From NCBI GenBank assembly GCA_023374025.1, contig SIJG01000032.1:1008441-1072440 (forward strand): a stretch of 64,000 nt of DNA, read 5' to 3'. A model generated the notes under the pieces. It worked only from the letters and a program-made list of their open reading frames with translations, had not been told where the DNA came from and did no database searches. Positions 8,929 to 64,000 of the stretch are shown here, one piece after another; the first letter of the stretch is position 1; each line of letters opens with the position of its first letter. Source of the DNA: Heterodera schachtii (Eukaryota; Nematoda; Chromadorea; Rhabditida; Heteroderidae). Both the position numbers and the translations under genes were made by a program.

Positions 8929-9324
8929 TCATTTGAAGAAATGTGACCGATCATTTTTGAGTTTTATGCAGAAAAATTAATTGTGTTGATTGATGCTATT
9001 TGTTTGCTCTTTGGACTTTGGTAAAGATGATGATCCCTAAACACTTGGATTTTGGACTCAAAATCAGTTTCCGGACCTTTTCAAGTGTACTGATCAGTCA
9101 GTGATCACGAATCTGAATTCGGGTTCTTTTTTTTTTTGTTAGTCAATATTCAAACGAATTCGCCTCAACGGCGGCGACGCTTCGTAGACCGCCCGCCCAA
9201 TTTCAAAATCCATTAATTAGTAAGGGGAGGTGGCATTTTGTTTTGCAAAAAAAAAAAGTCCATAAAAAACGGATTGTGCTAATAAAAATTGAATTGGCCA
9301 AAAACGAATCGTCCTCCGTCCGCC

Positions 9325-9332
9325 TATATAAA
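9325..9332 (+). promoter_or_regulatory. TATA box of four-TM paralogue 1
   Basis: TATATAAA lies 26 bases before a conserved leader ATG (9351) and 146 bases before the MEKK start. The same octamer at the same place occurs in all four paralogues, so it is very likely the core promoter. Confidence 0.75.
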
Positions 9333-9470
9333 GGTGGCGCTTCGAACGAAATGCTCTCATTTTGCGTCCGTCAGTATTTTCACCATTGTTTTCTATTTGC
9401 CCATTGCGTCAAAGTTCTGTTCCTTCATCTATCACAGCAGACGGAAGAAGTCGTCAAACGCGGCTTCAGC

Positions 9471-10481
9471 ATGGAGAAGAAAATCGTCTACTTCAAGCTG
9501 ATGCAAATTGTGCTCACTTTGGAATTCATTTGGCAAATCGTTTCACTGCACCAATTCTGTGGCACTTTTGCTGACCCAAAAGTCAATTCGTTTAAATTTC
9601 ACACAAATGATTAAATAAGGTGATTTTCAGGCCTTCATCCATGACAACATCTCACTTGGCCATTGCAAAGGCTTTACGCTCATCGGAAAGGATTCAAAAA
9701 GCGGTGAATTCGGCGTTGTGTTCGACCAGGACAAATGGTACAACCAATTGACGATGAGCAGCACCAATGGACGACCAATCGAAGAACAGCAACACCACCA
9801 ATTCATGGATGAATTGGCCGCGAAATTGCCACCCGCTGGACGCCTTTGTATTCCGATCATGGTCAATCAGCAAAAACCATAATAGCGATGAATAAAATTT
9901 GATTGTTTTTTCAGATTTCGCCTTTTTACTGGATTCGCCTGTACAAAAATCAGCTCAACAATGGCACTTTGCCTCGTTTTTTCCGGCCAACTGATCGTTG
10001 CATTGTGCTTGCTTGCTGTTGGCTTCGTGGATTTGCTACGCTCTGTGGAAGAATATGAACTGAGCGAGCGCGATGTATGGCCACAACAATTTAACGAAAA
10101 AAAAAATCGTGACTAAAATTGCTTTTCAAACGAAAAACCTATCAATTTTTGATCAATTGAGATCGCTTAATTTGATTCTTTTAAGAAATACTGGGCCTAT
10201 TTCCATGCCTTCCATTCTGCCTTCGGCTGGTGTATCTCTGCTTGGTTCTCATCCAAATTGCTGCTCTATTGGACGGATTTTTGGACTTGCGTCAACTTCC
10301 AAGCGGATCACACAAATGTGCCGTTGGTCACTTTGGTGTGTTTGTGCCGTTTTTGGCATTAGATTTTGCGACATTTTCCAACTTTTAGGTGCTAAGCATC
10401 GTCATGGTGTGTTCGTCTGTCTTTGAGATTGTGATCATTCATCAGCAGCAGAAGAAGAACGGAAGTGCCGTCATCATGTGA
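9471..10481 (+). pseudogene. Four-TM family paralogue 1 (single frameshift)
   Basis: Exons 9471-9581, 9631-9861, 9915-10074, 10186-10335 and 10389-10481 correspond one to one with copies 2-4. It starts MEKKIVYFKLMQIVLTLEFI (signal/TM1), followed by a soluble loop with SKSGEFGVVFDQDKW and EEQQHHQFMDELAAKLPPAG. Exon 3 should give TM2, but relative to copy 2 it has one extra T in the run near 9975 and a lost stretch after its start. The frame therefore breaks before the helix. Exons 4 and 5 are open (SAFGWCISAWFSSKLLL; VLSIVMVCSSVFEIVI) and end QQKKNGSAVIM. A sequencing error in the T run would restore it, so the pseudogene call is provisional. Introns 1 and 2 share an unusual gtcaat donor in this family. 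Confidence 0.7.
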
Positions 10482-10674
10482 ACAATAAGCACAGAGACGA
10501 ATGGAACGATGCTGATGCCAGCCAACAAAACATAACCAATGCGATGAAACGATGATGTGATGGATGATGATATATGATAAATCGGACTATTTCGTCATAA
10601 ACTGTTGTATTCCATTGTAAATTCCATTATATCAGTAGATGTATAATGTATGCATGGTTGTATAGACTCACTCA

Positions 10675-10920
10675 AAAAAAAGTTATAGCCAAAAATGTTT
10701 AGAAAACCAACTTTTTGAAATTTTCTGGCCGTAAATGTTTTGAAACCAAACGAAATTTTTTGAAATTTTGCAGGCTAATAGAGAATTCTTAGGGCTGTCG
10801 AATGATACTAAAAATTTTTAATTTGGATGCTTCTTGAAAAAGTTATGGTTCACTAGACTTGCAAAAAAAAAAAAAATTATGGTCGTGAGAACAAGCAATA
10901 GAGCCAAAATTAGGAGTGGG
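10675..10920. repeat. Inverted-repeat element remnant
   Basis: The right end (ttatggtcgtgagaacaagc aatagagcc) is a diverged copy of the right end of the 7313-7639 element, and the inside has the same 'ttgaaattttgcaggctaat' core. The left end is not recognisable, so this is a partial copy. A poly-G tract (10918-10931) follows immediately. Confidence 0.55.
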
Positions 10921-11224
10921 GGGGGGGGGGGTAAAAGCGACACTAAATCGGCAAAAATGTTCAACAATTAGTCTCATTTTTAATCCGCACTGCACCAAAA
11001 TCAATATCAGCCTTTATCGTACCAAATACATAATATCAACACACAAATACAATAATAATAACGGGTCACAATTACACTGACAAATGGTGTACAATAGCAT
11101 CGACATAACAATATATACAATACAATATAGGCATATACACACATATGTACAATAATAATATATTATCCATGAAAATATCATATGGTGCCGGTTCCAAATA
11201 TATCCATCCTCCTCCTCCTTGCGC

Positions 11225-12006
11225 TTATTGTTCGAAGCCGTACATCAAATTGCCCTGGCGCTTCAGTGCGTGTACCACGTCCCGGCTCTTCATGGTCTTG
11301 CGCCGCTCGTGCTGACAGTAGATGGCCTGAAAGCATTGGGTGATGAGATTATCGGGATTAAGTTTTTCGATTTTTGAAAACCCACCGCGTCTCGAATGAT
11401 GATTTCCAAGAACGATCGCAACGCGGCACGGACCTCGTCGTAGACTTTTGCGTTGATTCGGGCGACACCGGCGCGTCGGGCCAGACGAAGAATGGACGCT
11501 TTGGTGATTTTCTTGGCACTGTCGCGCAGAAGCTGAAAATTGAATAAAAATTAATGTCAAATTTCGGTAATTTTAGTTTTGTGGTCCCATAAAAAAGGAA
11601 AAAAGGGAATCTTGAGACGGTTTTGTGGTGCTCTCGGAGGATTTTCGGGGATGCTGATCACAAATATGACATCCATTTCGAACCCCTAACCCGGACTCAA
11701 ACAAACTCGAAAATTCAATGTCCGGCAAAATTCATGTTATGCAACAAAAACAGTTCAAATGTGATCGAAAGATTATGTCTTGCGTTCAGAAACATGTTCT
11801 CCGTTTTATCTCGTGCATTTTGTTGCATAATTTGAATTTTGTCGAAAATTGTATTTTCGAGTTTTGGTTCGAATCCGCGTCAGGGGTTCGAAATGGATGT
11901 CGAAATGGGTGTCAGAATCGTGTTCTCCATCCAACTGTCTTACCACTCGTGTGCGTCTCCCGCCTCGGCCTCGGCCTCGTTGCTGTCGATTTGCAGTGTC
12001 CGTCAT
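11225..12006 (-). CDS. Divergent histone H4 variant with lysine-free arginine tail
   Basis: Three exons (12006-11944, 11532-11386, 11326-11225) are joined in phase 0 by GT-AG introns and give 103 codons, exactly the length of H4 with its Met. The whole protein aligns to canonical H4 without a gap. Core landmarks are LARRAGVARI, Y-E-R in helix 2, FLEIIIRDA, RRKT, and DVVHALKRQGN..YGF, with about half of the core identical. The tail is RQQRGRGRGGRRTRV: the positions of K5, K8, K12, K16 and K20 are all non-lysine. Introns, and no histone stem-loop after the stop, mark a polyadenylated replacement-type gene, not a replication-dependent one. H4 pairs with H3 in the nucleosome. The helices look intact, so assembly into nucleosomes is plausible but unproven. 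It lies between four-TM copies 1 and 2 on the opposite strand. About 240 bases of AT-rich 3' flank (10985-11224) precede it on the map. Confidence 0.85.
11625..11940. repeat. Inverted repeat inside intron 1 of the H4 variant
   Basis: Left arm near 11635-11720 (gctgatcacaaatatgacat, ccatttcgaacccctaaccc, actcgaaaattc). The right arm at 11860-11935 is its reverse complement (cgagttttggttcgaatccg, ggggttcgaaatggatgtc). The arms belong to the same family as the 13203-13668 element. No target duplication is clear. Confidence 0.6.
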
Positions 12007-12387
12007 GTTCGTTCACGAAGTGTCGTCGTCACAGATGAGCAAAGGGGAGGCGAACAACAAACAGTCACAGAAGACAGAATTTGTAAGTGAAGAAAATAAT
12101 GATGGATTACTGCAAATTTTTGCCTATTTATACACTTTCAGACAGAGTTTCAAAAAAGAGAGATGAACCAATAAACGGAGAGTGCCAGAGAAAAATACAC
12201 CTCTCATTTTGGCGTACTATTTCTTTGTCTCTCTGTTAATAGACAAAAACTGAATTATTTCTGCACATTTTGACTTTAAAAAAATCTTTGAAATTCGTCG
12301 GTTGGACTTGAATTTTGCGTTTTGACCCAAGAATTGGGCTAATAAAAACGAATTGGCCAAAAACGAATCGTCCTACCTTCGTCCGCT

Positions 12388-12395
12388 TATATAAA
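12388..12395 (+). promoter_or_regulatory. TATA box of four-TM paralogue 2
   Basis: TATATAAA, followed after about 19 bases by the conserved leader ATGCTCTCATTG, as in the other copies. The flanking gtccgc...cgattcaaa(g/c)aaa is also shared. Confidence 0.7.
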
Positions 12396-12541
12396 GGGAA
12401 CGATTCAAAGAAAATGCTCTCATTGTTGCGTCCGTCAGTATTTTTTTTATTATTGTTTCCTATTTGCCAATTGTGATTGTGTCAAAGGATCGTTCTGCTG
12501 CTCCTTCATCGATCACAGCAATGGTCAAACGCGGCTGCATT

Positions 12542-14164
12542 ATGGAGAAGAAAATCGTCTACTTCAAGCTGATTGCAAATTGTGCTCACTTTGGAATTCG
12601 TTTGGCAACTCATTTCACTTCACCAATTCTGTGGCACTTTTGCCGAGCCAAAAGTCAAATCATTTAAATTTCACACAAATGATTAAATAAGGTGATTTTC
12701 AGGCCTTCCTCCATGACAACATCTTACTTGGCCATTGCAAACGCTTTACGCTCATTGGAAAGGATTCAAAAAGCGGAGAATTCAGCGCTTTGTTCGACCA
12801 GGACAAATGGCAGAACCAACTGTTGATGAGCAGCACCAATGGCCGACCAATCGAAGAACAGCAACACCAATTCATGGACGAATTGGCCACGAAATTGCCA
12901 TTCCGCTGAACGCCATTGTATTCCGATCATGGTCAATCAGCAAAACCAATAACGATGAATTAAAATTTGGTTTTTTCAGATTTCGCCTTTTGAATGGTTT
13001 TTTGACGCGATTCGCCTGTACAAAAATTTCATCAACAATGGCACTTTGTCTTATTTTTCTGGCCAACTGTTCCTTGCATTGTGCTCGCTTGCCGTTGTCT
13101 TCATGGATTTGCTACTTTTCTCTGTGGTAGAATATGAACTGAGCGAGCGCGATGTATGGCTAAAACAATTTAACGAAAAAAAAATCGTGACTAAAATTGC
13201 TTGGTAATAGTTCAGTTTGTCCCCCCCCCCTTTTTTTGAAAATTTTTTTTATGTTTTCAAAAGTCATGAAAACAGGTTTCCAAGGGTTTTCGGGGTCGCT
13301 GATCACGAATCCGGCACCCCTTTCGACCAATTCCGGATCCCGGACCCGAATTCGAACAAAAGTTCGAAAACTCAAATTTTCGAATTTCGCATTTTTGGTC
13401 TAAAAATGACTTAAAAGATCGTTTGTTGCAATATTTATGTTTGGGAATGTTTCCGTGTATTTAAACTAAACTTGAACCAAAAACGTGAAAATCAAAAATT
13501 TGAATTTTCGAACTTTTGTTCGAATTCGGGTCCGGGATTCGGAATTGGTCGAAAGGGGTGCCGGATTCGTGATCAGCGACCCCGAAAACCCTTGGAAACC
13601 TGTTTTCATGACTTTTGAAAACATAAAAAAATTTTCAAAAAAAGGGGGGGACAAACTGAACTATTACCAATTGCTTTTCAATCGAAAACCGATGAATTTT
13701 TGATCAAATTGAGAGGAGTTTTTTTTGTTGCTTTTATCGAATTGAGGAGGGTAATACTGTTCAGAATTTTGGTCCCACCTAACGAATTGAGTTTTTATGT
13801 TCGCGAATTGTCAAAATATGTGTTTACCATTGTGTCGCTAATTTGTATTGTTTTTAAGTTCTGGTCATATTTGCATGCCTGTCATTCTGTCTTCTGCTGG
13901 TGTGGCTCTGCTAAGTTCTCATCCAAATTGCTGCTCCATTGGACGAACTCCTGGACTTGCTTCAACTTTCGCGCGGATCACACAAATGTGTTGTTGGTCA
14001 CTTTGGTGAGTTTGTGCCGCTTTTGGCATTTGATTTTGCGCATTTTCCAAATTTAAACTGTTTTTAAGGTGCTCAGCATCATCATGGTGTGTTCGTTCGT
14101 CTCCGAGATTTTCTTCATATATTTGCTGCGCCAGCAGAAGAAGAACGGAAGTGCCATCGAGTGA
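12542..14164 (+). pseudogene. Four-TM family paralogue 2 (two frameshifts, transposon in intron)
   Basis: Exons 12542-12653, 12703-12931, 12980-13153, 13859-14005 and 14069-14164 match the other copies. Exon 1 has one extra base (CTGATTGCAA where copy 1 has CTGATGCAA) and exon 2 has one extra base (CCATTCCGCTGAACGCC where copy 4 has CCACCCGCTGGACGCC). Both frames fail, so the copy is disrupted. Exon 3 is fully open and shows the ancestral form (NNGTLSYFSGQLFLALCSLA, a membrane helix). Exons 4 and 5 are open too and end RQQKKNGSAIE. Intron 3 carries the 466-bp hAT-like element at 13203. Confidence 0.75.
13203..13668. mobile_element. 466-bp hAT-like foldback element with perfect 8-bp duplication
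   Basis: The termini are ggtaatagttcagtttgtcc on the left and its reverse complement on the right, continuing into arms of about 200 bp that contain gctgatcacgaatccggcac. The flanks are AATTGCTT at 13195-13202 and AATTGCTT at 13669-13676; an 8-bp duplication is typical of hAT transposases. Paralogue 1 has the uninterrupted site (ctaaaattgcttttcaaacg near 10113-10132), so the insertion is directly demonstrated. Short open frames in the arms are mirror images and not genes. Confidence 0.9.
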
Positions 14165-14482: not shown

Positions 14483-14490
14483 TATATAAA
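14483..14490 (+). promoter_or_regulatory. TATA box of four-TM paralogue 3
   Basis: TATATAAA, 19 bases before the leader ATG at 14509. Same arrangement as in the other three copies. Confidence 0.75.
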
Positions 14491-14633
14491 GCGAACGATT
14501 CAAACAAAATGCTCTCATTTTTTTCGTCCGTCAGTATTTTCATAATTGTTTTCTATTTGCCCATTGCGTCAAAGCATCGTTCTGTTTCTTCATTTTTCAC
14601 AGCAAACAAAAGTTATAACGTGGCAACATCATT

Positions 14634-15802
14634 ATGGAGAAGAAGATCGTCTACTTCAAGTTGATGCAAATTGTGCTCACTTTGGCATTTATTTGGCAAC
14701 TCATTTCACTGCGCCAATTCTGCGGCACTTTTTCCGACCCAAAAGTCAATTCGTTTAAATTTCACTAATGATCCATAATGATGTGATTTTCAGGCCTTCA
14801 TCCATGACATCTCTGTTGGCCATTGCAAACGCTTTACGCTCATCGGAAAAGACTCAAAAAGCGGTGAATTTGGCGCTGTGTTTGACCAGGAAAAATGGCA
14901 CAACCAAATGTTTATGATCAGCACCAATGAACGACCAACCGGAGAACAGAAACTCCAATTCTTTGACGAATTGGCCACGAAATTGCCATCCGCTGGACGC
15001 CATTGCATTCCGATAACGGTCAATCAGCAAAACCCATAATAGCGATGAATAAAATTGATTTGTTTTTTCACAGATTTCGCCTTTTGATTACTTTTTTGAA
15101 TGGGTTAGCAAAGACCCAAATCAGCTCAACAATGGCACTTTGTTTTATTTTTCCCTCTTATTTTGGTACGCATTGATGTCGCTTGTCCTTCTTGGCCTAG
15201 GCACCATTTTAATGCGACGCTCTGTGGATGTGGATGAATATAAAGTGAGCGAGCAAAGAAAACTTGGCCACAACAAATTCAACCCGACAAAATCACGTCC
15301 AAAATTGCAATAATCGAAATCCGATTGACTTTTTTTGATCAAATGTCCCTTTTCAGTCGAAATCCGATGGATTTTTTTTTTGATCAAATGTCCTTTTTCA
15401 GTCGAAATCCAATGGATTTTTTTTGATCAAATGTCCCTTTTCAGTCGAAATCCGGTGGATTTTTTTTTGATTAAAATGATATTAAGAAATTTGTATTGTT
15501 TTTTAAGTTCACCTTCTATCTCGGTGCATTCTGTTCTGTCTTCTGCTGGTATATATGTGCTGAGCATTCATCCACATTGGAGCTCAAATGGACGGACTTT
15601 TGGACTTGCTTCAACTTCCAAGCGGATCAAACAGATGTGCCGTTCCTCACTTTGGTGAGTTTGTGCCGCTTTTGCCATTTGATTTTGCGCATTTTTCAAC
15701 TTTTAGGTGCTTAGCATTGTCTTGGCGTGTTTGTCCATCTTCGAGATTTTCTTCAAAAATTCGCTGTACAAAAAACGTCCCCGTGTGCTTCAACGATGTT
15801 AG
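14634..15802 (+). CDS. Four-TM family paralogue 3, intact
   Basis: Exons 14634-14744, 14794-15018, 15074-15244, 15508-15654 and 15707-15802 are all in phase 0 and give 249 residues. Layout: TM1 or signal anchor (residues 1-27, from MEKKIVYFKLMQIVLTLAFI), then about 95 residues outside with HCKRFTLIGKDSKSGEFG and a conserved cysteine. TM2 is LFYFSLLFWYALMSLVLLGL, then a basic loop. TM3 lies around AFCSVFCWYICAEHSS, followed by the WTDFWTCFNF block, and TM4 is VLSIVLACLSIFEIFF with a basic tail. I do not recognise the family. The hydrophobic pattern suggests a membrane protein with one extracellular domain. Introns 1 and 2 both use a gtcaat donor. The conserved TATA box and leader imply shared regulation with copies 1, 2 and 4. 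Confidence 0.75.
15336..15476 (+). repeat. Intron tandem repeat carrying reiterated 3' splice-like sites
   Basis: About three copies of a 45-base unit (ttgatcaaatgtcccttttc, agtcgaaatccgatgg, T run) in intron 3 of paralogue 3. Each unit contains cccttttcag, a good nematode 3' splice-site match. The used acceptor is farther down at 15507. Confidence 0.75.
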
Positions 15803-16234
15803 GATGGATGATATATGAGATAATTGGATTAAATATTTTTTTTTAAAATTGTTGTATTCCATGGTTTATTTGTACCCGCATTTATAAAAAGGGATTAGGT
15901 GATCCGTTGATCGTGCCGTTCTTTTTAGTGGTGTAAAACTCACAAATGGCTTAAGAATCAGCTATTAAACTAATTCCGATTTTTGGACATTTATATTATT
16001 TGGTCACTTAATGGCCCTATGAAACGGTGTTTTCTGAGGTTCAATAACCGCTTGGCTGCAAATAAAATTTTGGGGCCAACAATCAGAAAATTTTGCAAAA
16101 GGCCCAGTGATCAGGCGGAGTGAGTGATCATTTTGAGAATGGCCAATTATTTGAGTTTTTTTTTAGCTGAATGTACCTTATGCTTTGCAAAAAAATTTGT
16201 CCATAAAAAACGATGATCGTCCATCCTCCTCCTC

Positions 16235-16242
16235 TATATAAA
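16235..16242 (+). promoter_or_regulatory. TATA box of four-TM paralogue 4
   Basis: TATATAAA, 19 bases before the leader ATG at 16261; same context as the other copies. Confidence 0.75.
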
Positions 16243-16390
16243 GGGGATGATTCGAAGAAAATGCTCTCATTGTTTGCGTCCGTCAATATTTTCATCATTG
16301 TTTTCTATTTGCTAATTGCATCAAAGCATCGTTCTCCTCCTCCTTCAGCTATCACAACAAACATAAGAAGTCGTCACACGTGGTGGCATC

Positions 16391-17645
16391 ATGGAGAAAA
16401 TCGTCTACTTAAAGCTGTTGCAATTTGTGCTCACTTTGGCCTTTATTTGGCGACTCCGTTCACTTCACCAATTCTGCGGCACTTTTGTCGACCCAAAAGT
16501 GCTGCTCTTTTTATGGCCAATTCATTACAAATGATCCATGATCTGATTTTCAGGCTTTCATCCATGACATCGTAGTTGGCCATTGCAAAAGCTTTACGCT
16601 CATCGGAAAGGACTCAAAAAGCGGCGAATTTGGCGCTGTGTTCGACCAGGACAAATGGCAGAACCAACTGTCGATGATCAGCACCAATGGACGACCAACC
16701 GAAGAACAGCAACACCAATTCATGGACGAATTGGCCACGAAATTGCCACCCGCTGGACGCCATTGCATTCCGATAACGGTCAACCAGCAAAAATCAAAAA
16801 CGATGAATAAAATTTTCATTTGTTTTTTCAGATTTCGCTTTTTGACTGGCTTGGCCTGGACAAAAATCTCCTCAACAATCACATTTTTCTTGAGTTTTCC
16901 CTCCTAATTTGGTACGCATTGTTGACGCTTGCCGTTCAAGGCCTAGGCATCAGGCAAATGTTACGCTCTGTGGAAGAATATAAAGTGAGCGAGGCGCAAA
17001 CGCGTGGCCACACAGCAAAATTCAACCCATACAAAACCGCGTCACTTTTCAGTCAAAATCCGATGGATTTATTTAGAGTGCCACGGAACCGGGAATTTTG
17101 GGCAAACCCGGGACCGGGACCTTTTCGGTTTGAAAAACCTGGAATTTTTGGCTGGGAAAACCGGGAAAAAACTGGGACTAGTCCCGGTCAAAACCGGCAC
17201 CTTGGTACTCAGTTGTCCGCTTCCAGGTCCCGGTCCCGTGGCACTCTAGATTTATTTGTTGATCAAATTGAGATTTGAGTTTTGTCAGGTTGAATTTTCT
17301 GTGTTCGCGAATCGTACAAAAATATGTTTTGGTTTACTAATGTGTCGCTTATTTTGTACATATTATTTTTTAAGTTCTGTTCATATGCCCATGCCTTCTT
17401 TTCTGTCTTCTATTGGTGTTTTTGTGCTGAGCATTCATCCAAATTGGTGCTCAATTGGACGAATTCCTGGACTTGCTTCAACTTCCGCGCGGATCACACA
17501 GATGTGCCGTTTGACACTTTGGTGAGTTTGTGCCACTTTTGCCATTAGATTTTGCGCATTTTCCAACTTTTAGGTGCTAAGCATTGTCATTGCATGTTCG
17601 TCCGTGTTCGAGATTTTTTTCAAAAATTCGCTGTTCAAAAAATAA
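16391..17645 (+). CDS. Four-TM family paralogue 4, intact
   Basis: Exons 16391-16498, 16554-16778, 16832-16984, 17375-17521 and 17574-17645 are in phase 0 and give 234 residues. It starts MEKIVYLKLLQFVLTLAFIW. The extracellular part has SKSGEFGAVFDQDKWQNQ and TEEQQHQFMDELATKLPP. TM2 is FLEFSLLIWYALLTLAVQ, TM3 runs through FFSVFYWCFCAEHSS and TM4 is VLSIVIACSSVFEIFF, ending NSLFKK. Family unknown. The cysteines before TM2 and the TCFNFRADHTDVPF block are shared with copies 1-3. Exon 1 has lost one codon and its donor is gtgctg. Intron 3 contains a Mutator-like element. Confidence 0.75.
17075..17248. mobile_element. 174-bp Mutator-like MITE with perfect 9-bp duplication
   Basis: Termini agagtgccacgg / ccgtggcactct are inverted and continue into gggaccgggacc / ggtcccggtccc. 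The flanks are GATTTATTT at 17066-17074 and GATTTATTT at 17249-17257. GC-rich, non-coding, and placed inside intron 3 of paralogue 4. Paralogue 3 has the related empty site (tccgatggattttttttt, tgatc). Confidence 0.85.
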
Positions 17646-29200: not shown

Positions 29201-31368
29201 GCGAATATAAACCCCAAAATCTAACAAAATTGCTTTTCAAAGCACAAAGCAATGGACAACCTTTTGGCATTGGCACTGGTGCCGTTGACCGGCTCGGACA
29301 CGCTCAAACTGTTGCTGAGGACAATGTCCGTGCTGTGCGGAACTGCCAAGGGGTGCATTCAGTTGTTGTCGGTCAGTTCTTTTAAACTTTGGATACAGGG
29401 ACGAATTAATTAATTAAGGGCGCTTAAAATGCAATCGATTAATTGATCAATCCCATTAAGATCGGCGGATTGGATTTGGTGTTGCGCGTGCTGCGCGACT
29501 CGACCCATGCCGACTGCAGCATTGAGGTCCTGCGGCGGATGGGGGATCTTAAAAAACTGAAAAATTTTAATTTTTTCAAAAATTCTTAACGCTTTTTATA
29601 GTAAACAAAATTTTTTTGTTAAATTTTAGTTTTTTAAATTTTTTTCTTTAAAAATTATAAAAAAAATATGGAAAAAGTCTGTTTTAAAAAATCATAGAAA
29701 AAGACTTAAAAATTTTCAATATGCTTAATCAATTATGTATTTTTTTCTTCTTTTTATTTCTTGTAAATTATAGTTATCTATCGTATTTTGTAAATTACAG
29801 TAGATCACCGTTAATTATTTCAAAATTTTAATTCTTACTATTTTAATAGAAAAAAATCTTTAAGAAAAAAAAAATTACTGTAGGACAATTTTATATATTT
29901 TTTAACTACAGTACTATCATACTTGAAAATTACAGTATGCCATAGCATTTAATTCAAATTTTCCGTGCACTTTTCAGGCTGCCGGCTGCCTGGCCCAGCT
30001 GTGCTCGCCCTCCCACTGTTTCCTGCGCTTGTCGCCCCACTCGCTGCACGCGCTGGTGCCGCGACTGTTGAAACTCGTCGACCACGCGTCGGCGCCCGAG
30101 GCGTTGTTGCTGTGCCTGGCGGCGCTCGCCAATCTGTGCGCACAGTGCGCGGCACCCGCCACAGAGTTACTGTACACGCACAACGCTGTCCTGCGGCTGG
30201 TCAAGGCTGCCGGACGTGAGCACAGTGTTGGCAATTTGTTTGTACAGGAAGAGGTGGGGTAATTTGTGATTAAATTACACAAATAAAAATTTTCAAAAAA
30301 TATTGCAAAATTTTTAGAAAAAAATTGAATTTAAGGATTTTTATAAAAAAAATTTTTTTAAATTAATTGTATTCATTTATATGAGAAAATTTTTTTATAA
30401 ATTTATTTTTAAATAATTTTTGGAAAAATGAATTTTAATTTTTATACATAAATTATAAAATTTTTTAAATCGAAAATTCTTGAAGACTTTTACTAAAATT
30501 AAAAAATAAATCGAATTATTATTTTAAATATTATTTTTTTCTCATTTATTTATGTACTAAAAAACACTGTATACAATTAATTAATCACATAAATCAAAAA
30601 ATGTTAATGATGATTATGCCAATCAATTAAGCTGGTGACCATTTTTACGCGGATGGCCAACCGCGGCTTTGAGCGGGCATTGGTTGCGCAGGGTGCCATC
30701 CCCGTGCTGTGCCGACTGCTCCAATTGGAAGCGGTTTTTGAGTGCCAAAGTCAGCGCCAAAGTGATTTCCAACGTCGCGTTTCCTACAAAGTCTGTGCCG
30801 TCGATAGAATCCATGGGTTTTTTATAAATTTATCATTTTTGTCAGGCAGCTGTTTGTCTTGGCATTCTTGCGTCCACCGGTTCGGGCCTGAAGGCATTGT
30901 ACGAACAGGAAGGCGAGTGAAATGAAATGAGGGGTCAAAATGCCATTCTTGGCACATTGATTTCCATAAATCTTGAAGCCGTTAGGCGCCGTCGAGAAAT
31001 ACTTAGAAAATTTGGACAAATTTTTTAAAAAATTTAGTATAATTTAAAAAAATGGGGGGATAGGAATCACCGGGATTCAGACCCCGAGGGTCGGGATCCC
31101 GGATTTTTTTCATAAAAAATTCCAAGATCTGGATTCTCGAAACTCCGCCGCGAGAACCCGATCGATCCCGTCCGGTCTCTAACAAATGCTCTCAATATTT
31201 TTAGTGCACAAAGTGCTTTCCAAAATACTCCGTTCCGCTTCCGGCACTGTGCCATCATCAACAAATCATGGGATAATGCCGGCAGCGAATGCGCCGCCCA
31301 TCCAACTGATCTGTTCAAGCATCAGCCAGCGATTGCAGCACACCTATCAGCTGGAAACGGCTGTCTGA
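23230..31368 (+). CDS. Inscuteable homologue (armadillo-repeat spindle-orientation adaptor)
   Basis: Eighteen exons are proposed: 23230-24317, 24407-~24538, 24670-24788, 25148-25395, 25894-26081, 26574-26633, 26943-27117, 27417-27728, 27846-27960, 28036-28087, 28509-28643, 29070-29186, 29243-29371, 29461-29526, 29978-30253, 30632-30790, 30846-30912 and 31205-31368. The first exon (362 codons) is Ser/Asp/Lys low complexity. Exon 7 has the acidic EDESPYEEGTGSLDSGQ. From exon 9 the protein is all-helical with armadillo features. Blocks AAGCLAQLCSP, ALANLCAQ, ELLYTHNAVLRLVKAAGRE, VTIFTRMANRGFERAL and AAVCLGILAS line up in order with the C-terminal ARM domain of Inscuteable, which links PAR-3 to the LGN/Pins spindle machinery. 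The intron after 30912 is GC-AG. The exon 2 end and the exon 6/7 joint are unresolved in phase. The start follows a tttag acceptor usable for trans-splicing. Confidence 0.7.
25480..25890 (+). repeat. Minisatellite rich in TGATCA in an Inscuteable intron
   Basis: About thirteen imperfect copies of a 25-33 base unit, roughly ttttcttcggcatatctgat plus cagtgatcag. It fills intron 4 of the gene at 23230 up to the acceptor at 25893, and the last unit merges into that acceptor (acggcattttcag). Confidence 0.85.
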
Positions 31369-39782: not shown

Positions 39783-41095
39783 AATATTGTTTAAAGAATA
39801 ATCTTAATAAATATAAAAATATAAAAATTTATAAATTTAATTATTTATTATTCAATATCATTTAAAGAATAATTCTTAATAAATATAAAAATATAAAAAT
39901 TTATAAATTTAATTATTTATTATTTCAATATCATTTAAAGAATAATTCTTAATAAATATAAAAATATAAAAATTTATAAATTTAATTATTTATTATTTCA
40001 ATATCATTTAAAGAATAATTCTTAATAAATATAAAAATATAAAAATTTATAAATTTAATTATTTATTATTTCAATATCATTTAAAGAATAATTCTTAATA
40101 AATATAAAAATATAAAAATTTATAAATTTAATTATTTATTATTTCAATATCATTTAAAGAATAATTCTTAATAAATATAAAAATATAAAAATTTATAAAT
40201 TTAATTATTTATTATTTCAATATCATTTAAAGAATAATTCTTAATAATTATAAAAATAAATATAAAAATTTATAAATTTAATTATTTATTATTTCAATAT
40301 CATTTAAAGAATAATTCTTAATAAATATAAAAATATAAAAATTTATAAATTTAATTATTTATTATTTCAATATCATTTAAAGAATAATTCTTAATAAATA
40401 TAAAAATATAAAAATTTATAAATTTAATTATTTATTATTTCAATATCATTTAAAGAATAATTCTTAATAAATATAAAAATATAAAAATTTATAAATTTAA
40501 TTATTTATTATTTCAATATCATTTAAAGAATAATTCTTAATAAATATAAAAATATAAAAATTTATAAATTTAATTATTTATTATTTCAATATCATTTAAA
40601 GAATAATTCTTAATAAATATAAAAATATAAAAATTTATAAATTTAATTATTTATTATTTCAATATCATTTAAAGAATAATTCTTAATAAATATAAAAATA
40701 TAAAAATTTATAAATTTAATTATTTATTATTTCAATATCATTTAAAGAATAATTCTTAATAAATATAAAAATATAAAAATTTATAAATTTAATTATTTAT
40801 TATTTCAATATCATTTAAAGAATAATTCTTAATAAATATAAAAATATAAAAATTTATAAATTTAATTATTTATTATTTCAATATCATTTAAAGAATAATT
40901 CTTAATAAATATAAAAATATAAAAATTTATAAATTTAATTATTTATTATTTCAATATCATTTAAAGAATAATTCTTAATAAATATAAAAATATAAAAATT
41001 TATAAATTTAATTATTTATTATTTCAATATCATTTAAAGAATAATTCTTAATAATTATAAAAATATAAAAATTTATAAATTTAATTATTTATTAT
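39783..41095 (+). repeat. 73-bp AT-rich satellite array, about 18 copies
   Basis: The unit starts aatatcatttaaagaataat, continues tcttaataaatataaaaata and taaaaatttataaatttaat, and ends tatttattatttc. Copies are nearly identical except the first two (small deletions) and two with taataattataaaaa (40240-40260 and 41050-41065). At over 90% A+T it has no coding capacity. Such homogeneity implies recent amplification or concerted evolution. Confidence 0.95.
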
Positions 41096-42490
41096 TTCTT
41101 TTGCGTCTTTGCATTTTTGTATTTTCAACTAATTTTATTTCTCGAGGATGAAATCTATCTACGAACAAATTTTAATTATTCCGGATAATAAAATTTTAAA
41201 TTTTTTGCGCCATTTAAGTTGACCAAATTCTTTTCATCGATGTAACGCGCGAATTGACCAACAAAAATTCGTTTAACGCTAATGATAGTGAATTGAATCC
41301 GTTTTTTTACCATTTAATTTATTTAAATTGTTTAATGACTAATAATATTATATTAAATTTAAAAAGGAATTTTTCTATTTCTTACATTTTTTTTTACAAA
41401 ATGAACAGAAAATGATGATGAATTTATATGCAATTAAAATTATCTGAGTGCCCCAAATTGGCAGCAATTATTTCTAAAATTCAATGAAAATTTTCGAGTT
41501 AATCCTCCTATATCAATGAATTGAAGGAGGCCTTTTTAACCAATTAATTTATTTAAATTCTATAATAACTATTAATATTGTTGAAATTTGGCACAAATAA
41601 ATTTAATCCGGCCAATTAACTTTTTTAAATTAATTCAAATCCATGAAATCATATTTAATTCATCGGCAATAAAAAGCAAATAGATAGCCGCCATTTTTGT
41701 TCTCTATTCTGCCGCCGGCGGCTTTGTTTCGCCTTATTTATGGTGAGCTGTGCTTTAATTCTATAAATGCAATAATGGCACGGCTTTATCAAAATCGAAA
41801 AAAATTATATTTTTTTGAATTTTTCACCAAACAAAAAATATCTTAATTCCCAATGGTGCCTCTATTTTGAGAAAAATCAACTATGTATAACATCCGATAA
41901 TTACAGCAAATTAGTGCAGTTGAGAATAGCGAAATTTGCGGAAATTATGAATATTTTGATCAATTGAATAATAGCGATCTGTTGAGACCGGATTTCATGC
42001 TGATTTTAGCATTTTTTTTTTTTTGTAAAATATTGATTAAAACACCGTCTCCCGGCAATAAAAAAAAACGAAAAATATACCCCTAAGAAATGGAAATTTT
42101 CTCAAAAATTTCATCCCCAAAACTTTTTTTTGACAAAATTTTTGGTAAAAAAATGTCAAAACTTTTGTTAAGAAAATTTATAATTGTCAGTGCGAAAAGA
42201 AAAATTAAGAATTTACTGTTTTACCTGATAAAAAATTTTTGCACAAAAATCACCAACCTTTTATGCTTTTTTTTTCGATTTTTCTGTTTATTTTGCCACT
42301 TTTATGCTTATTTAGTGCTTAATGATCATTTTTTGATGCTTAATTAAGTGCTTAATGATCATTTTTTGGTACTGAAAAATCCGGTCTCTAATGATCAGAC
42401 CAAAGATTGAGCAAAAGACTCGTCGAAACATTACAAAAACAATTAATTCTAAATATAGGCGCATGGATTTTCATTTTTTTTTTGTTTTTC
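41096..42490. other. 3' flank of C6 gene A, duplicated later in the window
   Basis: Bases 41155-41285 (attattccggataataaaat, ttgaccaaattcttttcatc, gacc aacaaaaa) recur at 45468-45565. Bases 41905-41960 (attagtgcagttgagaatag) recur at 45640-45690. This shows that the downstream flank was part of the duplication that made the two C6 genes. No exon is seen here. Confidence 0.65.
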
Positions 42491-61586: not shown

Positions 61587-64000
61587 ATGAACCGTCGTTT
61601 AAGAAAAATGTGAGAAATTTTTTAATGAAAAATTCTTCAGCTTTTGCAGTTTAGTGAGCCCTTACGAAAAACCACAGGGGGGGAGAGTTTTGCCTTACTT
61701 GTCAATTATCTGTACTCAGATTTTCAAAAATTAATGGTTTTCTTGGTCGGGAAAATCGATTCTGGCATCCATTTGGGCTCAATTCGTACATACCACTAAC
61801 CCGGACTCCGAAAAAGAAACAAAACCATTTTTCAACAAAATCACATTTTCATACACAAAATCCGGGTTCGGAGTTAGAAATTGGTCGAAATGGGTACCAT
61901 AATAGGGTTTTCCCGACCCTGAAAACTCATAAAAAGAGATTTTGTAAGCCCTGCCCTCCCTCCAATGGTTTTTCTTCGGGCCCATTAAACACAGCAAAAG
62001 TGCCGATTTCTCCATTCAACTAATTTTTATGCTTTTCAGTTGGATTTGTAACGATGTTTGGATGGACATTCTTCGCTTTTTTGACCGTGCCCATCTCTGC
62101 CTCAAATTGGCATTGCTTTCGCCACGTTTTGGTGCTTTGGTGGACAAACATTTTGATGGCAGCAAAACAACGGAATTGACGCTTTGGAATGACATTAGAA
62201 TTTGCAAGGAAAACATTGGAGGACCAAAAGTGAAACTGTCTGTACAAATTGGACCCAATTTTGTGAAATTTTCGATGCCCGACCGTCCGCTGTCCAACAA
62301 AATCAGCTTTAAAAGCCTCCATATTGAGTAATTCCGGCACTTTATTCTGTGTGCACTAATTAATGGGCAATAGTAAAGAATTGTGGTCACTAATCTATTT
62401 TTTTTTTTAATATATTTTTATTTTTGGCTCGAAACCGACTTTAATGGGTTTTCGAGAATGCTGATTACGAATCTTAACTCGGATTTACCTAATTCCGAAA
62501 CCCGAATTCGAACAAAATGTTGAAAATTTTTTCCGAGGATGCAATTTTCTTGGTAAAAGTTTTAATTCATTTAACCAATATTTATTTTTGATATAATACA
62601 ATGCTTCGATTGAATAACGCGCAATTTGCGCCAATTTTGTTCGAATTCGGGCCCGGGGTTGGGTTCGGAATTGGGGAAATCCACGTTCAGATTTGTAATC
62701 AGCACCCTCGAAAACCCCCGGAAACTGAATCTGAGTCCAAAAGAAAAAAAAATTTAAATTAGGGACCACAATTCTTTACCATTGCCAATTACGGATAAAG
62801 CAACACCTTTTTTTTTTTGCAGATTCATCGACCATTCCGTGCTCGCGTTTCTCCGTTCCAACAAGCAGATTTGGCGCCGAGGCACCAAATTGGATTTGCA
62901 TGTGGGCTACTACGACAAAAAAGATAGCCGGCAGATTTGGGATGTGTTTGGCCGTGAAATTTGGCCAATTTTTGCAACCATCAATTTGCGTACATTGTCC
63001 TTTTCCAACGGTGACCATCTGGCCAATTTGCTGCGCTGCACATCGCCAACAATGCTCACTGATCTTGATCAATTGAATTCAATCCAATCAGGGCATCTGT
63101 GTCCCGCCGGTGTTATTGCTGGTTCTGCAGATTTTGATGGTCCAACAAATGCAATTTCTGGCCGCCATGTGTTGGCCAAATGGCTGCACACTCCGTTAAA
63201 AGATGGTCAACCGAAGCGATTGTCTTGCTGTGAATTTGGGGAATCCAAAAAATTTAAATGGGTCAACAATTTCAAGGAGGTCGCGTCACATTTGCATAAA
63301 TAAATATTGTTGTTTTGACGACCCTTGGCTTCGGAGGGGGGGGGGGGGGGGGAGGCTGAATTGAAAAATTCCATAGTGTATTTTTTTCGAAATCCCGAAT
63401 TAGGGGGGCAGGGTGTGTTTTACAGGAATTTATAGCCGTTTTTTCGACAAAAAAATGACTATTTTTGCCATTTTGAGTCCATTTTCAAAAATAAAATAAA
63501 ATTTCTAAAAAATTTGCGCATTTTTTCTTGAAAATTTTATTGTTTTGGATTTCGGGGTTAGTGCTTTAGCTCCCTCAGCTCCTCCCCCGCCCTGGCTACG
63601 CCCTTGGTTATGACACTGATTATGAAATTTTGTTTAGGTTTTTGTGCGTGCCCGCACTTCTGTCAGTTACACTGTCAACTTTCATTTGCACGTGTCAACG
63701 CCAATTGTGCCATTTGAAGTGGTGAATGAGCGGACCAAAGAAAAGCTGACATTGAAGAAGAAATCCGATACAGGCTCTTTGAGTTGGTGGATAATGCAGC
63801 GATGTCCAATAATTGGGGAGAAGAAAGATGCAAATTCGGATGCCAATTCAAACAATTCGGATGCCAATTTGAGCAATTCGGGTGCCAATTTGAGCAATTC
63901 GGGTGCCAATTTGAACAATTCGGATGCCAATTTGAATAATTCGCGTGCCAATTTGAACAATTCGGATGCCAAGGTGAATAATTCGCGTGCCAATTTGAAC
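61587..64000 (+). CDS. F-box-like family protein, copy 2 (truncated by window end)
   Basis: Exons 61587-61609, 62040-62327, 62823-63279 and 63638 to the window end are in phase, with the same intron positions as 6776-8928. It starts MNRRLRKIWICNDVWMDILR, then FFDRAHLCLKLALLSPRFGA (F-box-like). Family blocks follow: IDHSVLAFLRSNKQIW, REIWPIFATINLRTL, AKWLHTP, NNFKEVFVRARTSVSY. Where copy 1 goes on to its C-terminus, this copy enters an in-frame tandem repeat of seven residues (NSDANLN type). Introns 1 and 2 hold inverted-repeat elements. Function as a ubiquitin-ligase substrate receptor is inferred from the F-box only. Confidence 0.75.
61740..61935. repeat. Inverted repeat in intron 1 of the second F-box gene
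   Basis: Left arm (tcttggtcgggaaaatcgat, accactaacccggactccga) and right arm (tccgggttcggagttagaaa, tagggttttcccgaccctga) are reverse complements. Same family as 13203-13668 but diverged. Confidence 0.65.
62369..62784. mobile_element. hAT-like inverted-repeat element in intron 2 of the second F-box gene
   Basis: Ends ggcaatagtaaagaattgtg / cacaattctttaccattgcc are inverted. The inner arms carry tgattacgaatcttaactcg / gatttgtaatcagcaccctc of the 13203 family. The flanks aattaatg and aattacgg match at 6 of 8 bases, a decayed target duplication. The 63310-63500 stretch in intron 3 of the same gene resembles the arms of the 48707 repeat. Confidence 0.65.
63839..64000 (+). repeat. 21-bp in-frame coding repeat
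   Basis: Seven or more copies of a 21-base unit (gatgccaatttgagcaattc g) encoding DANLSNS/DANLNNS. All copies keep the frame, with differences mainly at the first codon (Asp, Gly or Arg by GAT/GGT/CGT). The array runs off the window end, so its length is unknown. Confidence 0.9.

Follow-up and report, generated by a model that had tools for sequence, protein, structure and literature searches.

A predicted multi-copy histone H4 variant with a lysine-free tail in the cyst nematode Heterodera schachtii

Histone H4 ranks as the most conserved of the histones, with few variants known (PMC10878826, PMC3380720). Trypanosome H4V and human H4G have roles of their own and are 80% and 85% identical, respectively, to the canonical H4 of their own species; human H4G is without the C-terminal tail region (PMC10878826). 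In ascomycetes, H4E is a rare, divergent H4 with few modifiable tail residues, in which K16 is often arginine or non-polar and transcription is out of step with the other core histones (PMC10878826). Among metazoans, the Oikopleura dioica genome has variants of all histone families, including the H4 variant H4t (PMC3156773). In cyst nematodes, "histone Hgg-28" of Heterodera glycines (AAL78218; probeset HgAffx.2920) is a divergent H4-like protein, 52-53% identical to Caenorhabditis elegans H4 (PMC2246285, PMC2662880). Here we describe an H4 variant gene, H4v, in a 64,000-nucleotide stretch of the Heterodera schachtii genome (the window; C32:1008441-1072440 of assembly G000, which has 178.5 Mb in 356 contigs).

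H4v shares with H4E a divergent sequence and a shortage of modifiable tail residues. Unlike H4E, which usually has longer N- and C-termini, a non-canonical intron layout and scarce lysine and arginine (PMC10878826), it has 103 residues, introns at the canonical places and, in Heterodera, an arginine-rich tail, and it does not belong to that class. Oikopleura H4t is testis-specific and differs by three residue changes, none of those named being a tail lysine (PMC3156773). Trypanosome H4V and human H4G presumably have origins separate from that of H4v. Hgg-28 is likened to H4v through table rows in two papers, which in the passages covered mention neither a tail free of lysine nor gene copies or partners (PMC2246285, PMC2662880). 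Our literature search, with preprints and most subscription journals outside its coverage, found no account of an H4 of this lysine-free kind in cyst nematodes.

The H4v gene lies at 12006-11225 on the minus strand and is predicted to encode, in three exons with GT-AG introns, a 103-residue product that begins MTDTANRQQRGRGRGGRRTRVLLRDS and ends NLMYGFEQ. Splice sites were inferred from genomic sequence, and the reading frames and GT-AG sites agree with the three-exon gene at 11225-12006 proposed in an initial annotation of the window. Its parts and flanks are as follows.

11944..12006, minus strand: exon 1, encoding MTDTANRQQRGRGRGGRRTRV, an arginine-rich tail without lysine
11533..11943, minus strand: intron 1, 411 bases, GTAAGA..TTTCAG, at the position of canonical H4 intron 1
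11386..11532, minus strand: exon 2, LLRDSAKK...IIIRDA, the first part of the histone fold
11327..11385, minus strand: intron 2, GTGGGT..TTTCAG, at the position of canonical H4 intron 2
11225..11326, minus strand: exon 3, encoding AIYCQHERRKTMKSRDVVHALKRQGNLMYGFEQ, then the stop TAA
12125..12132, minus strand: candidate TATA box TATAAATA, 119-126 bases 5' of the ATG, with a putative function
10525..11224, minus strand: 3' flank, 700 bases without a histone stem-loop when up to 4 mismatches are allowed

Exon lengths of 63/147/102 bases are also those of three intact assembled canonical H4 genes in the same genome. The equal exon lengths and intron places point to an ordinary intron-bearing H4 gene, not a retrocopy, as the origin of H4v.

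In a gap-free alignment, H4v is identical to the genome's canonical H4 at 49 of 103 positions and different at 54. In a phmmer search of solved protein chains, H4v matched 94 distinct sequences (best E 9.1e-29), and all of the best 60 of these 94 have histone H4 in the molecule name. This E value, with exon lengths equal to those of canonical H4, argues that the likeness to H4 is not due to chance. The product has the length of H4 (103 residues), is collinear with it over the histone fold and shares its intron places, which indicates common descent. The GAKRH motif, which we take to be the PROSITE tail signature of H4, and the acetylatable K5, K8, K12 and K16 are missing, and GGRRTR replaces GGAKRH. 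By its sequence, H4v is thus an H4 by descent and fold and is not a canonical H4. A CENP-T, TAF or NF-Y histone fold was considered and rejected on sequence and introns; the PF15511, TAF and NF-Y models match canonical H4 too. In NCBIfam, H4v falls below the cut-off, and canonical H4 does likewise.

Residues 1-21 of H4v contain no lysine and seven arginines, whereas the canonical tail has five lysines and three arginines; an arginine-rich tail without lysine had been described in the initial annotation. The gap-free alignment to H4 given there stands as far as equal length and collinearity go, but phmmer and MAFFT each place a gap in the tail. The substitutions K5N, K8Q, K12G, K16R and K20V are accordingly true when the tail is forced to align without gaps and depend on that alignment; with the MAFFT gap, K5, K8, K12 and K16 stand opposite arginine and K20 opposite valine. 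The proposal that the protein cannot be acetylated or methylated holds for tail lysines, but seven lysines occur elsewhere in it, and the RG-rich tail could be methylated on arginine. Residues R36, R39, R45, R78 and K79, presumably facing DNA, and D68, Y72, H75, K91, R92 and Y98, presumably facing H2B, are retained, which suggests that H4v is able to form nucleosomes.

Relatives of H4v were sought in a collection of 5.8 billion protein sequences. The first search returned six matches, of which three were ordinary H4. Of the others, P0001 from H. trifolii (12 member sequences) is identical to H4v at 101 of 103 positions, P0002 from Globodera rostochiensis (three members) is identical at 61 of 103, and P0006, a second H. 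trifolii model of 159 residues, contains pieces of H4v inside a chimeric-looking protein. The initial annotation had regarded the lack of any orthologue in related species as a sign of decay, and the relatives in H. trifolii and G. rostochiensis answer this point. An alignment search gave no further clear member among the best 120 of 1765 matches, six of which were examined closely; those below P0002 were mostly named histone H4 or unnamed. The name Meloidogyne occurs in none of these 120, a weak sign that the variant is missing from that genus. In the P0002 tail, which has three arginines, K5, K8, K12 and K16 are replaced by T, T, Q and R and K20 is retained. P0002 and H4v have 19 derived residues in common, and they form a clade with support of 99/96 in a tree of 26 rows, although its bootstrap values had yet to stabilise completely. 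As read from these sequences, the loss of the acetylated lysines is common to the Heterodera and Globodera variants, while the replacing residues differ; the arginine-rich tail is seen only in Heterodera when Heterodera and G. rostochiensis are compared.

A search of the G000 genome found at least nine H4v loci, five intact and four partial, a family that is invisible from the window alone.

Intact copies: C32 at 887k, 890k, 1019k (the window gene) and 1126k, and C125
Partial copies: two on C100, without exon 1
Partial copy: C32:1142k, without exon 2
Partial copy: C34, part of exon 3 alone, also preceded by the string TATAAATA

All five intact frames retain their splice sites; compared with the other intact copies, the tail is one residue longer at C32 1126k and two residues shorter on C125. 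Matches to canonical H4 number at least five, four of them on C3 and another on C8. Four of these were assembled, three normal and one (L020, C3:2733k) with a frameshift in exon 1, and the fifth is a match to exon 2 only; an H2B gene is present in all four canonical H4 stretches examined. Pairwise comparison of the intact H4v copies (ten pairs) shows differences at 7-16% of the aligned intron 1 sites, while coding divergence is 0-0.022 at nonsynonymous sites (dN) and 0-0.083 at synonymous sites (dS). The ratio dN/dS is 0-0.68 in the nine pairs with dS above 0, opposite to the value near 1 that the initial annotation had associated with decay, and it is 0.15-0.42 between the truncated C100 copies and the intact ones. 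Nonsynonymous changes make up 4 of 11 against 75% expected (binomial P 0.008), in a count made by eye that left out the ambiguous tail column 10 and two truncated copies. The claim that the gene is under constraint is borne out by these ratios and by the relatives in two other species, which carry the main weight. A pseudogene reading was rejected on intron versus coding divergence and the five intact frames.

The mark used to recognize replication-dependent histone genes was a 3' stem-loop that follows the stop by no more than about 60 bases. Rfam gave no match at its gathering score in 16 loci, including canonical controls that bear the stem-loop; since Rfam missed these controls, the element was scored by string search with controls. 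The string AACGGCCCTCTTTAGGGCCACA occurs 44-55 bases 3' of the stop in all four canonical H4 genes and in one canonical H3 gene. Tolerating up to 4 mismatches, the search found no stem-loop in the 700 bases 3' of the stop at any of nine H4v loci, and H4v thus lacks the mark of a replication-dependent gene. The same scan was negative for three divergent histone classes of this genome, which we call H3v (0/3 loci), H2Bv (0/6) and H2Av (0/2), and a looser string over 600 bases found none at a seventh H2Bv locus (C53). From the missing stem-loop and its known role, it is probable that H4v messages carry poly(A) tails and are independent of S phase. Genome-wide, exact histone stem-loop strings number 34, and those on C84 stand about 5 kb apart on alternating strands. 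Stretches with such strings on C84, C24, C121 and C25 had no H2A, H2A.Z, H2B or H3 by tblastn, in which H4 was not queried.

Expression data are available for H. glycines. Probeset HgAffx.2920 is listed as H4 (three expressed sequence tags, 52-53% identical to C. elegans H4) and is up in parasitic second-stage juveniles (J2) and third-stage juveniles (J3) compared with infective J2; its second probeset is up only in J3, a stage at which two probesets for canonical H4 (97-98%) decrease instead (PMC2246285). Its best match is AAL78218, "histone Hgg-28", and at 8 days its level in the resistant reaction is 12.1-fold below that in the susceptible one (PMC2662880). Judged by percent identity, and with only two H4 classes seen in G000, HgAffx.2920 is very probably the H. 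glycines orthologue of H4v. Among Hgg entries with accessions close to that of Hgg-28, AAL78214 is "putative esophageal gland cell protein Hgg-20", and AAL78213 and AAL78212 are "probable protein kinase Hgg-20" and "putative gland cell secretory protein Hgg-25". The study by De Boer in 2002 reportedly dealt with cDNAs from the gland-cell region, and Hgg-28 is presumably a product of that set. The motif ATGCCA, which we assume to be a gland promoter motif, is absent from six H4v, six H2Bv and two H2Av promoters, and it occurs once in two of three H3v promoters and in the H3 control.

Taken together, H4v is probably, though far from certainly, a functional H4 variant of cyst nematodes with a polyadenylated message uncoupled from replication. 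Its source would be a canonical H4 gene with introns, duplicated before the Heterodera/Globodera split. The protein would pair with H3 (canonical or the short-tailed H3v) and enter nucleosomes. Its tail keeps R16-R17-x-R19 (as R16-R17-T18-R19) and would stay charged, and since it has no lysine, acetylation would be unable to tune it. With no lysine at 5, 8, 12, 16 or 20, tail charge and H4K20 marks would be beyond regulation in H4v nucleosomes. Supply would be independent of S phase, and use would occur in feeding juveniles, as the H. glycines data suggest, possibly in enlarged cells that do not divide, for example those of the esophageal glands, and perhaps in one set with divergent H2A, H2B and H3. 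Use in feeding-stage, perhaps gland, cells is the role we favour.

Several points weigh against this reading. The contact positions R35 and Y88, which we take to touch DNA and H2B, are changed in H4v (R35L and Y88H). The stem-loop is present in only one of three canonical-like H2A loci, those on C1 and at C3:2739k being without it. H4v matches C. elegans H4 with 98.6 bits and 56% identity in BLAST, and the published HgAffx.2920 figures of 85-94 bits and 52-53% are slightly lower; the probeset is linked to H4v through percent identity and score and not through a sequence comparison. The initial annotation had named a lack of transcripts as another sign of decay; on this point the expression evidence is that of the matching H. 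glycines gene, not of the window gene's own transcript or protein, and the gland origin of Hgg-28 comes from a clone name. Finally, dS is mostly lower than intron divergence (0.013 and 0.094 between the window gene and the 890k copy), which may reflect exon-biased gene conversion; this would exaggerate constraint and makes the dN/dS test weaker.

The initial annotation had suggested use in sperm or germline. Such a role in compact chromatin, like that of the male-specific histones of Oikopleura, is conceivable but doubtful: it would suit the arginine-rich tail, the missing stem-loop and the divergent classes of all four core types, as Oikopleura has a male-specific isoform for each family (PMC3156773). 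The matching H. glycines gene is, however, already up in parasitic J2 and J3, which leaves the suggestion unsupported, and a clone name links it to glands. The G. rostochiensis tail, with its three arginines, is not arginine-rich, and H. trifolii, which we take to be a parthenogen, keeps the intact protein P0001. Sperm use retains some probability because adult males were outside the sampling of the H. glycines stage series (PMC2246285).

Three other explanations are far less likely. The feeding-stage rise, the Hgg name, the multiple gene copies and the precedent of a bracovirus H4 that enters the chromatin of its host (PMC10878826) would fit a secreted effector that enters host plant chromatin, which we consider very improbable, as the N-terminus MTDTANRQQRGRGRGG, read from the sequence, has no hydrophobic stretch and hence no classical signal peptide, the intron layout is that of nuclear H4, and divergent H3, H2A and H2B are present in the worm. 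Decaying, functionless H4 duplicates would explain why four of nine loci are partial; little credence can be given to this in view of the five intact frames with retained splice sites, the intron versus coding divergence, the relatives in two other species and the expression of the matching gene. An H4 dedicated to centromeres and paired with several CENP-A-like H3 proteins would find its partners in the divergent H3 loci on C2 and C7, which appear CENP-A-like to the eye, and we regard it as most unlikely. These are four loci, L021 and L025-L027.

Divergent H3, H2B and H2A classes occur in the same genome. H3v has three near-identical copies (L022-L024; C2:3184k, 3087k and 3014k), starts MARRSNATGTRKPHRYRPG, has a tail cut to about 18 residues and contains two lysines in 110 residues. 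It is 99% identical to H. trifolii P0007, and the H. schachtii models P0009/P0011 are the same minus seven residues and carry an A/S difference that is also seen among the G000 loci. The close matches of this genome to proteins named H. trifolii and H. schachtii support its placement in the Heteroderidae, which the initial annotation had implied. If the P0007 model is right, intron 2 is GC-AG in all three copies; the H. schachtii models drop the seven residues as use of an upstream GT donor would do. H2Bv has seven loci (L044-L049, L052) with 40-44% identity to H2B over the last exon, a tail cut to MARRRRKKEPRKVSYK, a short Arg/Lys type, and a C-terminal extension. Four are intact as read, one has an exon 1 frameshift, one lacks exon 1 and has a broken exon 2, and the C53 locus is more divergent. 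The proportion of differences among five H2Bv copies (10 pairs) is 0-0.040 at nonsynonymous sites versus 0.014-0.167 at synonymous sites. H2Av has two loci (L054/L055, on C20 and C36); the C20 product is 41% identical to H2A, the tail is MPRHRAKPRS, and the C-terminus is acidic and Ser/Glu/Asp-rich. In Pfam, H2Bv matches the core histone model and H2Av reaches only an NF-Y/archaeal histone model; scores against canonical H2A and H2B are 97.8 bits for H2Av and 100 bits for H2Bv. With the numbering and role that we assume for the acidic patch, its positions are changed in H2Av (E64K, D90N) and H2Bv (E105I, E113K). A separate H2A group (L032-L035 on C10 and L043 on C81), in which no stem-loop was found, shows 76-82% identity to H2A over the main exon.

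These divergent classes beside H4v hint at a second kind of nucleosome. Such a second core-histone set (H2Av, H2Bv, H3v and H4v) would be replication-uncoupled, with shortened or lysine-poor tails and a broken acidic patch, and co-assembled in feeding-stage cells into nucleosomes closed to most tail- or patch-reading enzymes, a proposal that we advance only tentatively. The list that includes HgAffx.2920 also has the H2B-like HgAffx.1292 (1e-21; -15.5 fold) and the H2A-like HgAffx.3069 and HgAffx.17449 (2e-18 and 5e-16; -11.7 and -11.1 fold) (PMC2662880). By our estimate, the H2Av and H2Bv bit scores are of the size expected for these E-values, and we infer that the three probesets may be H2Bv/H2Av counterparts and that the four variants may share one nucleosome. 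The shared listing is weak evidence of co-regulation because 1668 probesets have reduced levels at 8 days in the resistant reaction, and no H3-like probeset is in the part of the list shown (PMC2662880). The H3v intron between MQ and EAS is missing from the canonical H3 on C10 and seemingly common to the CENP-A-like loci, which also argues against one common set. So does the lack of a common promoter motif: no 8-mer is shared among the promoters of the four divergent classes. They share eight 7-mers versus 0.07 expected from a crude block shuffle, and the six listed are AT-rich.

Elsewhere in the window, four copies of one sequence lie at 9273-10122, 12333-13200, 14483-15153 and 16206-16849, the others being 82-85% like the 12333 copy. 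One copy is head-to-head with H4v, and the sequence is also found beside the C100 and C125 H4v copies. An AT-rich tandem array of 18 copies of a 73-base unit spans 39783-41098, and the 2-kb bin with the lowest GC content of the window is 40001-42000 (0.153). Open frames at 29927-30262 and 61948-62331 gave a hit to an Inscuteable C-terminal model, at 27.5 bits for a cut-off of 27, and an F-box hit below threshold.

Acetylation of H4 and methylation of H4K20 act on tail lysines, and a conserved, multi-copy animal H4 without any tail lysine is a natural test of the need for these marks. If its H2A, H2B and H3 companions share the same nucleosome, these crop parasites would offer a natural experiment in how chromatin works when its usual points of regulation are missing.
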